A DNA stretch of 64,000 bases from an uncultured Bacteroidales bacterium (GTDB lineage Bacteria; Bacteroidota; Bacteroidia; Bacteroidales; CAIWKO01): the NCBI GenBank assembly GCA_903913285.1, contig CAIWKO010000054.1, forward strand, positions 1 through 64,000, in the 5' to 3' direction. Positions 2,155-44,932 of the stretch are shown here, piece after piece. Within the stretch, counting starts at the first letter, position 1; the number at the start of each line of letters is the position of its first letter. Made by a program: the position numbers and the translations under genes. Under the pieces are notes generated by a model. That model was not told the origin of the DNA, made no database searches, and was given only the letters and a program-made list of their open reading frames with translations.

Positions 2155-2225
2155 AATATTGGGAATGCAGAAGTAAGAATTCAGAATTCAGAAGTGAGAA
2201 TTCAGAAGTGGGGGGAAGGGGCGGA
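2155..2225. repeat. Short direct repeats (AGAATTCAGAAGTG phrase)
   Basis: About three imperfect copies of a 14-base phrase containing GAATTCAGAA lie in the gap between the hydrolase start and the next minus-strand gene. They look like slippage-derived low-complexity sequence. No coding potential is evident. Confidence 0.5.
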
Positions 2226-2269: not shown

Positions 2270-2686
2270 CTAGCGATATTGCGACCAGCTTATTTGACTC
2301 ATTAAATAATATGAAAAGATTAGGTTTGCAACTATCATTAGTATGAAACTCCATGCAATTATGCCACCAATCATATTTTTCTTTTTTGACCATTGATCGA
2401 ATTCGGCAATGCGAGCCTTCCACTTTTCTTTATAATCGAAAGAAAAGTAATTTAGTGCCAATAAGGCTATTATGAAAAAAATAACTTTAAAGGATCTGAT
2501 TTCGAGAGTGGCGTGGCGGTTAATGAACATGGTATAATAGTTATACAAGGAAAATGCAAACCATATTTCTAATGCCATCATTGCTATTTGTGCATACCAA
2601 TGGCTCAGCGATTTGATCGCCCCCGTTTTTGCTACTTGATAGAATTTGTAAAACAGATAGTAATATGCTTTGATGAATTTTGCCAT
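2270..2686 (-). CDS. Small integral membrane protein, unknown function
   Basis: A 138-residue protein with three predicted membrane segments: roughly 33-55 (IAMMALEIWFAFSLYNYY), 66-83 (VIFFIIALLALNYFSF) and 108-130 (IIAWSFILMIVANLIFSYYL). A charged loop (KEKWKARIAEFDQWSKKKN) precedes the last segment. No catalytic motif is visible and I do not recognise the family. Its start lies 176 bases from the edge of the 21-bp dyad array at 2862-3134, which is therefore in its 5' region. Confidence 0.7.
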   Translation of the reverse strand: MAKFIKAYYYLFYKFYQVAKTGAIKSLSHWYAQIAMMALEIWFAFSLYNYYTMFINRHATLEIRSFKVIFFIIALLALNYFSFDYKEKWKARIAEFDQWSKKKNMIGGIIAWSFILMIVANLIFSYYLMSQISWSQYR

Positions 2687-2861
2687 TTAAATTATCGTTT
2701 TTTTTTCTCTTCCCTCCACAAATCTACAAATTTATCAACTCCCTATTTTATTGAAATAAAAATAAAGCAGGGACACAATTTCTCGTACCCCTGCTTTTTA
2801 TTTGGTTTTCAGGCATCGCCGTATAAACATCCCTTATCACGGTAATAACGTCCTGAGCAAC

Positions 2862-3134
2862 GGTACAATTGTACTGAGATACTGTACAAGTGTACCGGGT
2901 AATGGTACAATCGTACCGAGTAATGGTACAATCGTACCGAGTAATGGTACAACTGTACCGGGTAATGGTACAACTGTACCGGGTAATGGTACAACTGTAC
3001 CGGGTAATGGTACAACTGTACCGAGTGATGGTACAATCGTACCGAGTAATGGTACAACTGTACCGGGTAATGGTACAATCGTACCGAGTAATGGTACAAT
3101 CGTACCGAGTAACGGTACAATTGTACCGCATTTC
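2862..3134. repeat. Tandem array A: 13 units of 21 bp, each with a GGTAC/GTACC dyad
   Basis: Thirteen head-to-tail units with an exact 21-base period and no length changes (unit starts at 2862, 2883, 2904 ... 3114). Each unit has the arms GGTAC and GTACC around a 4-base spacer (AATT, AATC or AACT), then a 7-base linker of the form GRGTAAT. Units with spacer AATT are perfect 14-base palindromes. The first two and last units are the most diverged. Because 21 is divisible by 3, open frames run through the array on both strands, but they encode only low-complexity heptad repeats and are not genes. Confidence 0.95.
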
Positions 3135-3181
3135 TTAACAAATTTTAACAATTGGAGTATTGAAGAATAACCTAGCTAAAA

Positions 3182-3310: not shown

Positions 3311-3985
3311 TTAAGGTTTGTAAATTGAGGTTTCTTTTTGTTTTCGGCCTGCATAATAAAAAAAACTGATGTCGGCAGCCACGGGCGGCCAGCTTTTAAG
3401 GTGTTTGCCGAAACCTGTGCGCAGGCAAATAAAGTTATTGTTGGTGCGGCCGGCCTGCATCAGGGTTGGGCCCGTGCGTTGGAGGCTGTCCGAACTTATT
3501 TCGGCGGGCATCACCATGGCAATATGTCCCGAACGTTTGGGGTCGGGGTTTTTGCACACGGCCACCACCACCAGGCCCGAATCGGCCTTGCGTTGCGCTG
3601 TTTCCATCACATTGGTTTTTATCTGTCGCCAGCCCGAGTCGGCGGCAGCCTGCGTGAAAAGCCATTTATATTGGGCGCCGGCCAGCAGTTCGGTGTCGTG
3701 GGCGGGCGGCCTCAGCATGTATATGCCGCGCCTTTTGCACACGGCCGCAGCAAAAGCACTGCAATGGGTGGTGATATCTTTGGCGGCATTGGGTTGGTCG
3801 GGTGCGCCCGTTTCCCAGTTCACGTGGTGGCCCGCTTTCCACAAACTATCCACGCGCATGCTCACGTAGAACTGCCTCAGCCGCATTCCCGCTGTATCTA
3901 TTTTGATCAGGTTCTGACCGTGGGCCATGCTCAGCAGGGCAGCGGCGAAAAAGGCGAGGAATATTTGTTTTCTGATCATCTTCAT
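3311..3985 (-). CDS. Secreted NlpC/P60- or CHAP-like cysteine hydrolase (putative)
   Basis: A 224-residue exported protein with a signal peptide at 1-23 ending MAHGQ. The motif THCSAFAAAVCKRRG places a Cys at 75 at the start of a helix, and RSGHIAMVMP places a His at 154 at the start of a strand. This Cys-helix then Gly-His-strand order is what papain-like NlpC/P60 and CHAP peptidoglycan amidases show. The family is inferred from that arrangement only. Probable role: periplasmic peptidoglycan or amide hydrolysis. The small membrane protein at 3182-3292 follows immediately. G+C content is higher than in the flanking intergenic DNA. Confidence 0.65.
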   Translation of the reverse strand: MKMIRKQIFLAFFAAALLSMAHGQNLIKIDTAGMRLRQFYVSMRVDSLWKAGHHVNWETGAPDQPNAAKDITTHCSAFAAAVCKRRGIYMLRPPAHDTELLAGAQYKWLFTQAAADSGWRQIKTNVMETAQRKADSGLVVVAVCKNPDPKRSGHIAMVMPAEISSDSLQRTGPTLMQAGRTNNNFICLRTGFGKHLKSWPPVAADISFFYYAGRKQKETSIYKP

Positions 3986-20690: not shown

Positions 20691-20859
20691 AAATATTTAT
20701 TGAATTTTGCTTTTAAGATATTTCAAACAACCGAGTGACACGCCTAAAATTTGTTCTATAAATTATTTATTGCAAAAAACTATCCTTAACTATCAATACC
20801 AACGAGGTTTATAATGTAATTTAAAGTATCTTTGATCAATGTAAATAGGTTTTTGTTCA

Positions 20860-21069
20860 AATATAGTCGTATTTGTACCAAATATAGTCGTATTTGTACC
20901 GAATATAGTCGTATTTATACCAAATACAGTCGTATTTGTACCGAATACAGTCGTATTTGTACCGAATACAGTCGTATTAATACCAAATACAGTCGTATTT
21001 ATACTAAATACAGTCGTATTTTTACCGAATACTGTCGTACTTCAACAAAATACAATAGTTTTTACAAAA
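20860..21069. repeat. Tandem array B: 10 units of 21 bp, each with an AATAC/GTATT dyad
   Basis: Units start at 20860, 20881, 20902 and so on to 21049, with an exact 21-base period. Units 1-8 are good and 9-10 degenerate. The consensus is arm AATAC (or AATAT), 4-base spacer AGTC, arm GTATT, then a 7-base linker such as TGTACCR. This is the same 5-4-5-7 layout as array A at 2862-3134, although the sequences are unrelated. It lies past the lipA stop and 488 bases upstream of the BNR-protein start. The open frame through it codes only for a YSRICTE-type heptad repeat and is not a gene. Confidence 0.93.
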
Positions 21070-21140
21070 GACTGTAAAACTTGTTTATAGGTATTTGGAA
21101 TTTCTAACAGGAATATGAGTAAAAAAGAAAATCGATTTGT

Positions 21141-29380: not shown

Positions 29381-29655
29381 GAGGTATCTGGTCTATGGTA
29401 TAGGGTATCTGGTATGGGGTATCTGGTCCAGGGTATATGGTATGGGGTATCTGGTCTATGGTATCTTGTATTTGGCGATTAATTATTGTGAAAACTTGTA
29501 AATCATAATGAGAAATAAAAATGTGAAGAGGTGGTTTTTTTTTTATGTATCCGAATTAATGGATCGATTACCAAATTGCGGCCACCATAGACCTGTTACC
29601 AGATACCAGATACCACAGACTTGTTACCAGCTAACAGGTTCCAATTACCAGCTAC
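29381..29655. repeat. Inverted blocks of a GGTATCTGGT phrase
   Basis: The left block (29381-29470) holds five or six imperfect copies of GGTATCTGG/GGTATATGG. The right block (29585-29655) holds the reverse complement phrase (TACCAGATACC, TTACCAGCTA) several times. The blocks could pair into an imperfect cruciform or RNA hairpin about 270 bases long. The 348-base gap 29312-29659 contains nothing else recognisable. Confidence 0.75.
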
Positions 29656-30840: not shown

Positions 30841-31165
30841 CCCGTCCCAACGCGTTGGATAGCGTAAAATCGTAAAATTTAGCCATCCCATCGCGTTGGA
30901 TAGCGTAAAATCGCAAATTTTAGTCGTCCCATCGCGTTGGATTGAGTAAAAAAGTTTTTTGAGCCCAATCCGACACGTCGGAACCCGTTCAAAAAAATTT
31001 TGAGCCCATCCGAACACGTTCAGGTGGGTTAAAAAAAATTTTGAGCCCATCCGAACACGTTCAGATGCGTTCAAAAAAATTTTGAGCCCATCCGAACACG
31101 TTCAGGTGCGTTCAAAAAAATTTTGAGCCCTCCCGAACACGTTCGGGTGCATCAAAAAGTTTTTT
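30841..31165. repeat. Tandem array C: 8 units of 41 bp, each with a dyad and A/T tract
   Basis: Eight dyad cores repeat at an exact 41-base spacing (core starts 30851, 30892, 30933, 30974, 31015, 31056, 31097, 31138). Unit 1 holds the perfect palindrome CCAACGCGTTGG. Unit 8 holds CCCGAAC-AC-GTTCGGG with 7-base arms. The middle units are intermediates (CCGAACACGTTCAGG). From unit 4 on, each also has a run of A followed by T (AAAAAAATTTTGAGCCC), a typical intrinsically bent tract. The rest of the 30719-31286 gap shows nothing recognisable. Confidence 0.93.
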
Positions 31166-44520: not shown

Positions 44521-44932
44521 TTGCATGTTGTAGAAATTGAAAGGGTGTGCTGAAATACGTACTTGCCGATCCTGAAATTGAAGAAAGCGTTTGTCGATCT
44601 CAGGGTTGTTCCCCGCACATAGAGGGACGTCCCCCTATGATAGAGGGACAACCCTCCGATGTAGAGGGACAACCATGAGCAACAGAGGGATGCCCCCCTG
44701 ATATAGAGGGACGACCATGAGTAATAGGGGGACGCCCCTCCGGAACAGGGGGACGCCCCCCTGCAACTGGGGGGAGTCCCCTCGGAGCTGGGGGGAATTT
44801 CTGAGCGCAAGAAACTGTTCGGAAAATGTTGCGTTTGCTGCAACATAAAATTATACCATCATCGCGCCTGTCCGTTTCATGAATAACATTAATACAGCGC
44901 ACAGCAAAAGTATATTGTTGCACGTTGTAGAA
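44521..44932. repeat. 15-bp direct repeats flanking array D
   Basis: TTGCATGTTGTAGAA at 44521-44535 and TTGCACGTTGTAGAA at 44918-44932 (14 of 15 identical, same orientation) enclose array D and about 110 bases past it. They could be remnants of an insertion, recombination sites or shared regulatory sites. No transposase or terminal inverted repeats are seen. The remainder of the 44287-44991 gap has no recognisable gene. Confidence 0.6.
44600..44809. repeat. Tandem array D: ten units of 21 bp, G/C-rich dyads
   Basis: Unit starts fall every 21 bases: 44600, 44621, 44642 and so on to 44789; the first and last units are diverged. Units contain RGGGG then a 4-base spacer (ACGC, ACGT, ACAA) then CCCCY and a short linker. 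The unit at 44747 is perfect: AGGGGG-ACGC-CCCCCT. Others are imperfect, and the units at 44663 and 44705 lack the right arm. The layout again equals 5-4-5-7. Open frames through it encode PS-rich or RG-rich heptads and are rejected as genes. Confidence 0.9.

Follow-up and report, generated by a model that had tools for sequence, protein, structure and literature searches.

Array A and its neighborhood

The window, i.e. the whole stretch of 64,000 nucleotides that was analyzed here, comes from the genome of an uncultured Bacteroidales bacterium and carries near its beginning a tandem repeat that we call array A (2862..3134; neither this nor the other repeats are assigned a strand). The array is located between two ORFs of the minus strand. 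One is a small membrane-protein-like ORF (2270..2686) that does not show any Pfam family above cut-off, and the other (3311..3985) has no Pfam match at E≤0.01. The 176 bases given in a preliminary description as the distance from the array to the start of the 2270-2686 gene, on its 5' side, are correct. This interval holds an intrinsic-terminator-like hairpin of 15 pairs with a T-rich tail (2764..2797, minus strand), whose fold, read from 2797 to 2764, has z=-6.0. Synteny with the genus mate G001 was considered and rejected: only the 3311-3985 gene aligns (64% identity) and no array is found beside the match, where the contig ends. At window 2163-2207 there is also a heptamer-type repeat (GAATTCAGAAGT...), which has many copies across the genome and is found in the genus mate G002 as well.

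Array A contains 13 units of 21 bp each, starting at 2862 + 21n, and the unit is a GGTAC-NNNN-GTACC dyad (14 bp) followed by a 7-bp linker. The exact spacing claimed previously is borne out both by the unit listing and by TRF (13.0 copies, score 378). The lag-21 identity over the best 84 bp is 0.96, whereas none of 20 Markov-1 sequences of 64 kb exceeded 0.51; the periodicity is far beyond chance. While the 13 units lie where they had been placed, they do not mark the full extent of the array, since degenerate edge units continue leftward (2821..2861, from the lag-21 and TRF extents) to a limit at about 2821-2837. At the other end, the right edge unit and its flank (GCRTTTCTTAACAAATTTTAACA; 3114..3155) are common to array A and to a second array, B, as seen by comparing the two.

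The arms were said to be nearly invariant, and each of them is indeed intact in 12 of the 13 units (unit 2 has TGTAC instead of the 5' arm GGTAC and unit 1 has GTACT instead of the 3' arm GTACC). Spacer and linker were said to alternate, and variation does sit there: the spacers are AATC (five), AACT (five), AATT (two) and AAGT (one), and the linkers of units 1-12 are GGGTAAT (5), GAGTAAT (4) or others (3). Yet this variation is not free. AATC goes with GAGTAAY and AACT with GGGTAAT, with unit 8 mixed and the edge units deviating, so that array A is made up of two unit types (haplotypes), as expected from unequal exchange or slippage. Head-to-tail tandem units of this length place array A among the minisatellites (about 10-60 bp), and its lag-7 identity of 0.24 is too low for a 7-bp period such as that of STRR or TAACTGA-like heptamers. 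A CRISPR array was rejected because there are no unique spacers and the entire unit repeats.

Sister arrays

Array B is found at G000:C20:123366-123658, on a different contig of the same genome. In the last unit and about 24 bp of the adjacent flank it is nearly letter-identical to array A, and the interior consensuses of the two differ at 3/21 positions. The simplest reading of the two sequences is that A and B would go back to one copying event followed by separate homogenization of each interior, with the edges keeping the old sequence. A second sister pair, L088 and L089, has 86% identity over 321 bp. The two pairs document that arrays were copied from one site to another and that interiors were homogenized while edge units stay alike; the per-unit mismatch profiles, together with the A/B comparison, also give the homogenized interior and degenerate edges that are characteristic of minisatellites. 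The possibility that the A/B flank is the fixed end of an element was rejected, since its 20 bp occur exactly only twice in the genome.

A class of 21-bp arrays

A lag scan of 812,500 bases of this genome found 26 period-21 arrays other than 7-bp repeats, and few loci at other periods. The class was set apart from four true heptad arrays by a lag-7 cut of 0.5, and lag-7 identity is low in its listed members (0.09-0.40). Two heptad arrays of the window (29383-29475 and 29584-29637) share one intergenic region, and the unit of one is the reverse complement of that of the other (GGTATCT / AGATACC). Extrapolation gives roughly 130 period-21 arrays in the genome, a rough figure because some of the sampled stretches were chosen around motif matches. 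By TRF, 30 arrays were tallied in 0.81 Mb of the genome at lenient settings (at least 100 bp, at least three copies and a match of at least 70%; 66 arrays listed overall): 18 have a period of 21, two of 42, four of 41 and one of 43, and the remaining five are at 7, 14, 18, 24 and 102. The 21-bp period therefore dominates in this genome. The window itself holds, by both TRF and lag scan, another 21-bp array with the unit CAAATACAGTCGTATTTGTAC (20821..21073) and a more degenerate 21/42-bp array with units like AGAGGGACGCCCCCC plus linker (44613..44807).

By comparing the units of the class, only 2 of 325 pairs were found to be alike beyond chance, and these are the two sister pairs; a single common unit family was thus rejected. 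The arrays are of all ages, with a match down to 55-66%, and their median copy number is 12.6 (31 arrays), a value that short-read assembly may cap, as several arrays end at contig ends. One array (L049, 2762-3207) has 21 copies and an apparent higher-order repeat of about ten units. Two adjacent 41-bp arrays are located at window 30845-31158, and arrays of 41-43 bp recur in the genome at L060, L092, L095 and L098; they possibly represent four-turn relatives of the 21-bp arrays. Array A is best read as belonging to a large class of non-coding minisatellites dispersed between genes, in which each array has its own unit and nearly all units are 21 bp long.

Occurrence in other genomes

A similar picture is seen in a second phylum. 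In 192 kb of the termite-gut Treponema MAG G395, from contigs taken by number irrespective of repeats, the 13 arrays with a match of at least 70% include eight at 21, two at 42, two at 23 and one at 18, with unit sequences that differ from those of our genome. Within Treponema there are apparent repeated families (L138, L189, L191), and one array of 23-bp units with 97% match (L188, 10134-10292) is an exception to the 21-bp rule. In a Treponema MAG (L031, 1009-1194) a 21-bp GTAC array, detected by the dyad pattern described below, separates cas4 from cas1 in a row of cas4, cas1 and cas2, which looks like an insertion and not like a placed regulatory site. The class is present among the genus mates too: of the arrays with a match of at least 70%, three of four in G001 are at 21 or 63, three of four in G003 are at 21 or 42, and none of the two in G002 fits. 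In a further 20 genomes of the order, of which 287 kb of contigs were scanned, one array out of five fits.

Genome contigs were also scanned for pairs of intact GTAC dyads separated by a linker of 7 bp. Of the 12 resulting stretches, nine have at least three units, and these nine belong to Bacteroidota, Spirochaetota and Chloroflexota. Arrays of the GTAC subset are rare, since the strict pattern occurs in 2/393 genomes of the order and a pattern with a looser linker in 1/395 genomes of the class, namely in this genome only. An origin from viruses or plasmids was rejected, as no similar DNA was found in phages (three units searched) or in plasmids. In viral sequences, 35 stretches have two GTAC dyads 0-30 bp apart. 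Of these, 33 are pairs standing alone or repeats of another kind, and a 7-bp linker occurs in none of the 33. The other two, on viral contigs (L034, 8951-9069; L035, 1718-1857), are arrays of six to seven near-identical 21-bp GTAC units.

Conservation of the arms

The arms of arrays A and B vary less than the rest of the unit (3/20 variable columns in the arms vs 14/22 elsewhere, Fisher p=0.0018). The same is seen in four GTAC arrays of other genomes (8/40 vs 22/44, p=0.006), although the pattern by which these were found favors intact arms. Arm conservation in the GTAC subset is therefore real, and this part of the constraint on pairing proposed in the preliminary description stands. As a general cause it does not hold: the remaining arrays of the class with palindromic units show no conservation of the arms (p=0.41), only 5/26 arrays of the genome have units whose palindromy exceeds that of shuffles at p≤0.05 (mean p 0.51), and four units of array B break one arm pair.

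What holds the period

One of the questions raised by these arrays is why their length is kept while their sequence is not. We suggest that they are a non-coding minisatellite class whose period is tied to two helical turns and which may be bound by protein on one face, a reading to which we give a probability of about 0.45. A length of 21 bp would be retained as exactly two turns of B-DNA (2 × 10.5). No smaller whole number of base pairs makes up whole helical turns, so that units of this length stay on one face, and 21 bp would be the shortest whole-number period to remain in phase over about 13 copies. The units would thereby be displayed on one side of the helix, and their most likely partner would be a DNA protein that binds cooperatively; in the GTAC subset (A, B and the arrays in other phyla) the 14-bp dyad may be the site of a dimer and the 7 bp its linker. 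One sequence-reading protein cannot explain all arrays, because there is no motif common to them. To go from period to protein is an inference, and a frozen period that was simply inherited is almost equally likely.

Length changes are rare, with 1037 mismatches vs 33 indel bases in 30 arrays (L017, with 70 mismatches and 13 indel bases, is excluded from the tally). Arrays of other periods in this genome likewise have few indels, and the scarcity may reflect the youth of the arrays together with the detection method. In Treponema, among arrays with a match of at least 70%, indels amount to 5%, 3% and 0% in three non-21 arrays and to 0 in nine of ten at 21 or 42, which are small numbers. Variable columns cluster within the units (mean z 0.70, t=3.6, 26 arrays), for which multi-base mutations can be an alternative source. 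A wedge model shows coherent bending that peaks at 21 among periods 18-24 in control tandems of random genomic units. For the units of the arrays themselves, no selection is seen on curvature compared with shuffled units of the same period (mean p 0.56 and 0.63 for two wedge tables), nor on a twist sum of 720 degrees. The rule is not absolute either, with periods of 41 and 43 in this genome and of 23 and 18 in Treponema.

Another explanation, which we hold to be a serious one even if it falls short of even odds, is that the arrays are neutral or selfish: one or several ancestral 21-bp arrays were copied between genes and homogenized separately, their sequences drifted and the period was simply inherited, with no function. 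The sister pairs with common edges and diverged interiors fit such a history, and so do the apparent repeated families of Treponema, the range of ages, the lack of a common motif and the mixed gene contexts, including the array between cas4 and cas1. Yet inheritance alone requires transfer between phyla, since the period also dominates in a second phylum whose units are unrelated, and the arm conservation of the GTAC subset and the clustering of variable columns suggest that some constraint exists.

The reading of a period tied to two helical turns can be extended to a helix-phased satellite system, in which about a hundred intergenic arrays would drift in sequence while their period is locked to two DNA turns by a nucleoid or regulatory protein, which would polymerize along one side of the DNA and respond to phase more strongly than to sequence. 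Such a system would have emerged in, or spread to, Bacteroidota and Spirochaetota at the least, with the GTAC-dyad subset keeping operator-like arms across phyla. We consider this extended form rather unlikely.

RNA, promoter and coding readings

The array could instead be transcribed as a row of RNA hairpins that acts as a 3' UTR stabilizer or a sponge. Compared with shuffles, array A folds with z=-11.9 on the minus strand and z=-7.0 on the plus strand, all 7/7 pairs are kept on the minus strand in its units 3-13 (11 units) when G-U is allowed, and the terminator-like hairpin follows the array on that strand. Nevertheless, we find this improbable: only a minority of the arrays of the class are palindromic, pairing is poorer in array B, whose spacer favors the plus strand, and no Rfam family matches at the gathering threshold in the whole window.

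Promoter activity of the 2686 gene had also been linked to the array, which would make array A a promoter-side tuner of this membrane-protein gene. Besides the distance of 176 bp upstream, the gene context of the arrays offers some reason for it, as divergent gene pairs flank 12 of the 23 arrays placed by script (three of the 26 period-21 arrays could not be placed), where about 6.7 are expected from intergenic bases. The count becomes 11 after correcting array B, whose LytTR neighbor was missed by the gene caller, and the bias is mild. The promoter reading is not supported because the strong terminator-like hairpin separates the array from the gene; 3/23 placed arrays are convergent, the Pfam-matched neighbors of the arrays are unrelated to each other, and we regard this role of array A as very improbable.

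Least likely of all is a protein-coding heptapeptide repeat (e.g. GTIVPLL on the minus strand), for which several open frames run through array A and MLKFVKK-like starts are common to A and B, but which was ruled out by a synonymous-change test in the 27 of 32 arrays with enough units (no frame with a clear excess; mean best z 1.29 with about five frames per array), while in the L088 array a stop in the second unit interrupts the frame that is most obvious, Pfam matches are sub-threshold only and periods of 41 and 43 are not multiples of 3.

Relation to known repeats

Bacterial minisatellites or VNTR (MIRU-like) are alike in being tandem, intergenic and prone to changes in copy number, with homogenized interiors and degenerate edges. 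Typical VNTR sets have mixed unit lengths, whereas here, at an extrapolated total of roughly 130 loci, unrelated units have a single length of two helical turns. The heptanucleotide STRR of cyanobacteria are short tandem repeats scattered between genes; the 21-bp arrays are also found between genes but differ in unit length and in lacking a shared sequence. REP and BIME are intergenic palindromic elements, and the units of arrays A and B are likewise intergenic and palindromic, but most arrays of the class are not. In iteron and operator arrays, repeats about two turns apart present their sites on one face of the DNA. The spacing is similar here, yet there is no common site across arrays, and no replication or partition family was found by Pfam among the searched neighbors of A and B.

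Among published descriptions, the nearest is that of TAACTGA and other heptamer direct repeats in Beggiatoaceae, Cyanobacteria and Bacteroidetes (PMC4679880). There, as in our case, the repeats are intergenic direct repeats with many copies, also in Bacteroidetes; they have a 7-bp unit and one common sequence, and lie near start codons in a Beggiatoaceae genome (PMC4679880). The 21-bp arrays have little lag-7 identity and no common sequence. In freshwater Planctomycetota, intergenic tandem repeats were tied to deletions, in passages that give no period (PMC9426551). A 21-bp class of this kind was not found described in open-access full texts, whether on repeats of this length, on the helical period, on minisatellites or on termite Treponema.

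These arrays may account for contig breaks in MAGs assembled from short reads. If they are neutral, they offer a clean case of concerted evolution with sister arrays that can be compared. If it is the period rather than the sequence that is kept, they would let helical phasing in bacterial chromosomes be studied as a natural experiment, and would give satellite DNA a bacterial counterpart that is open to testing.
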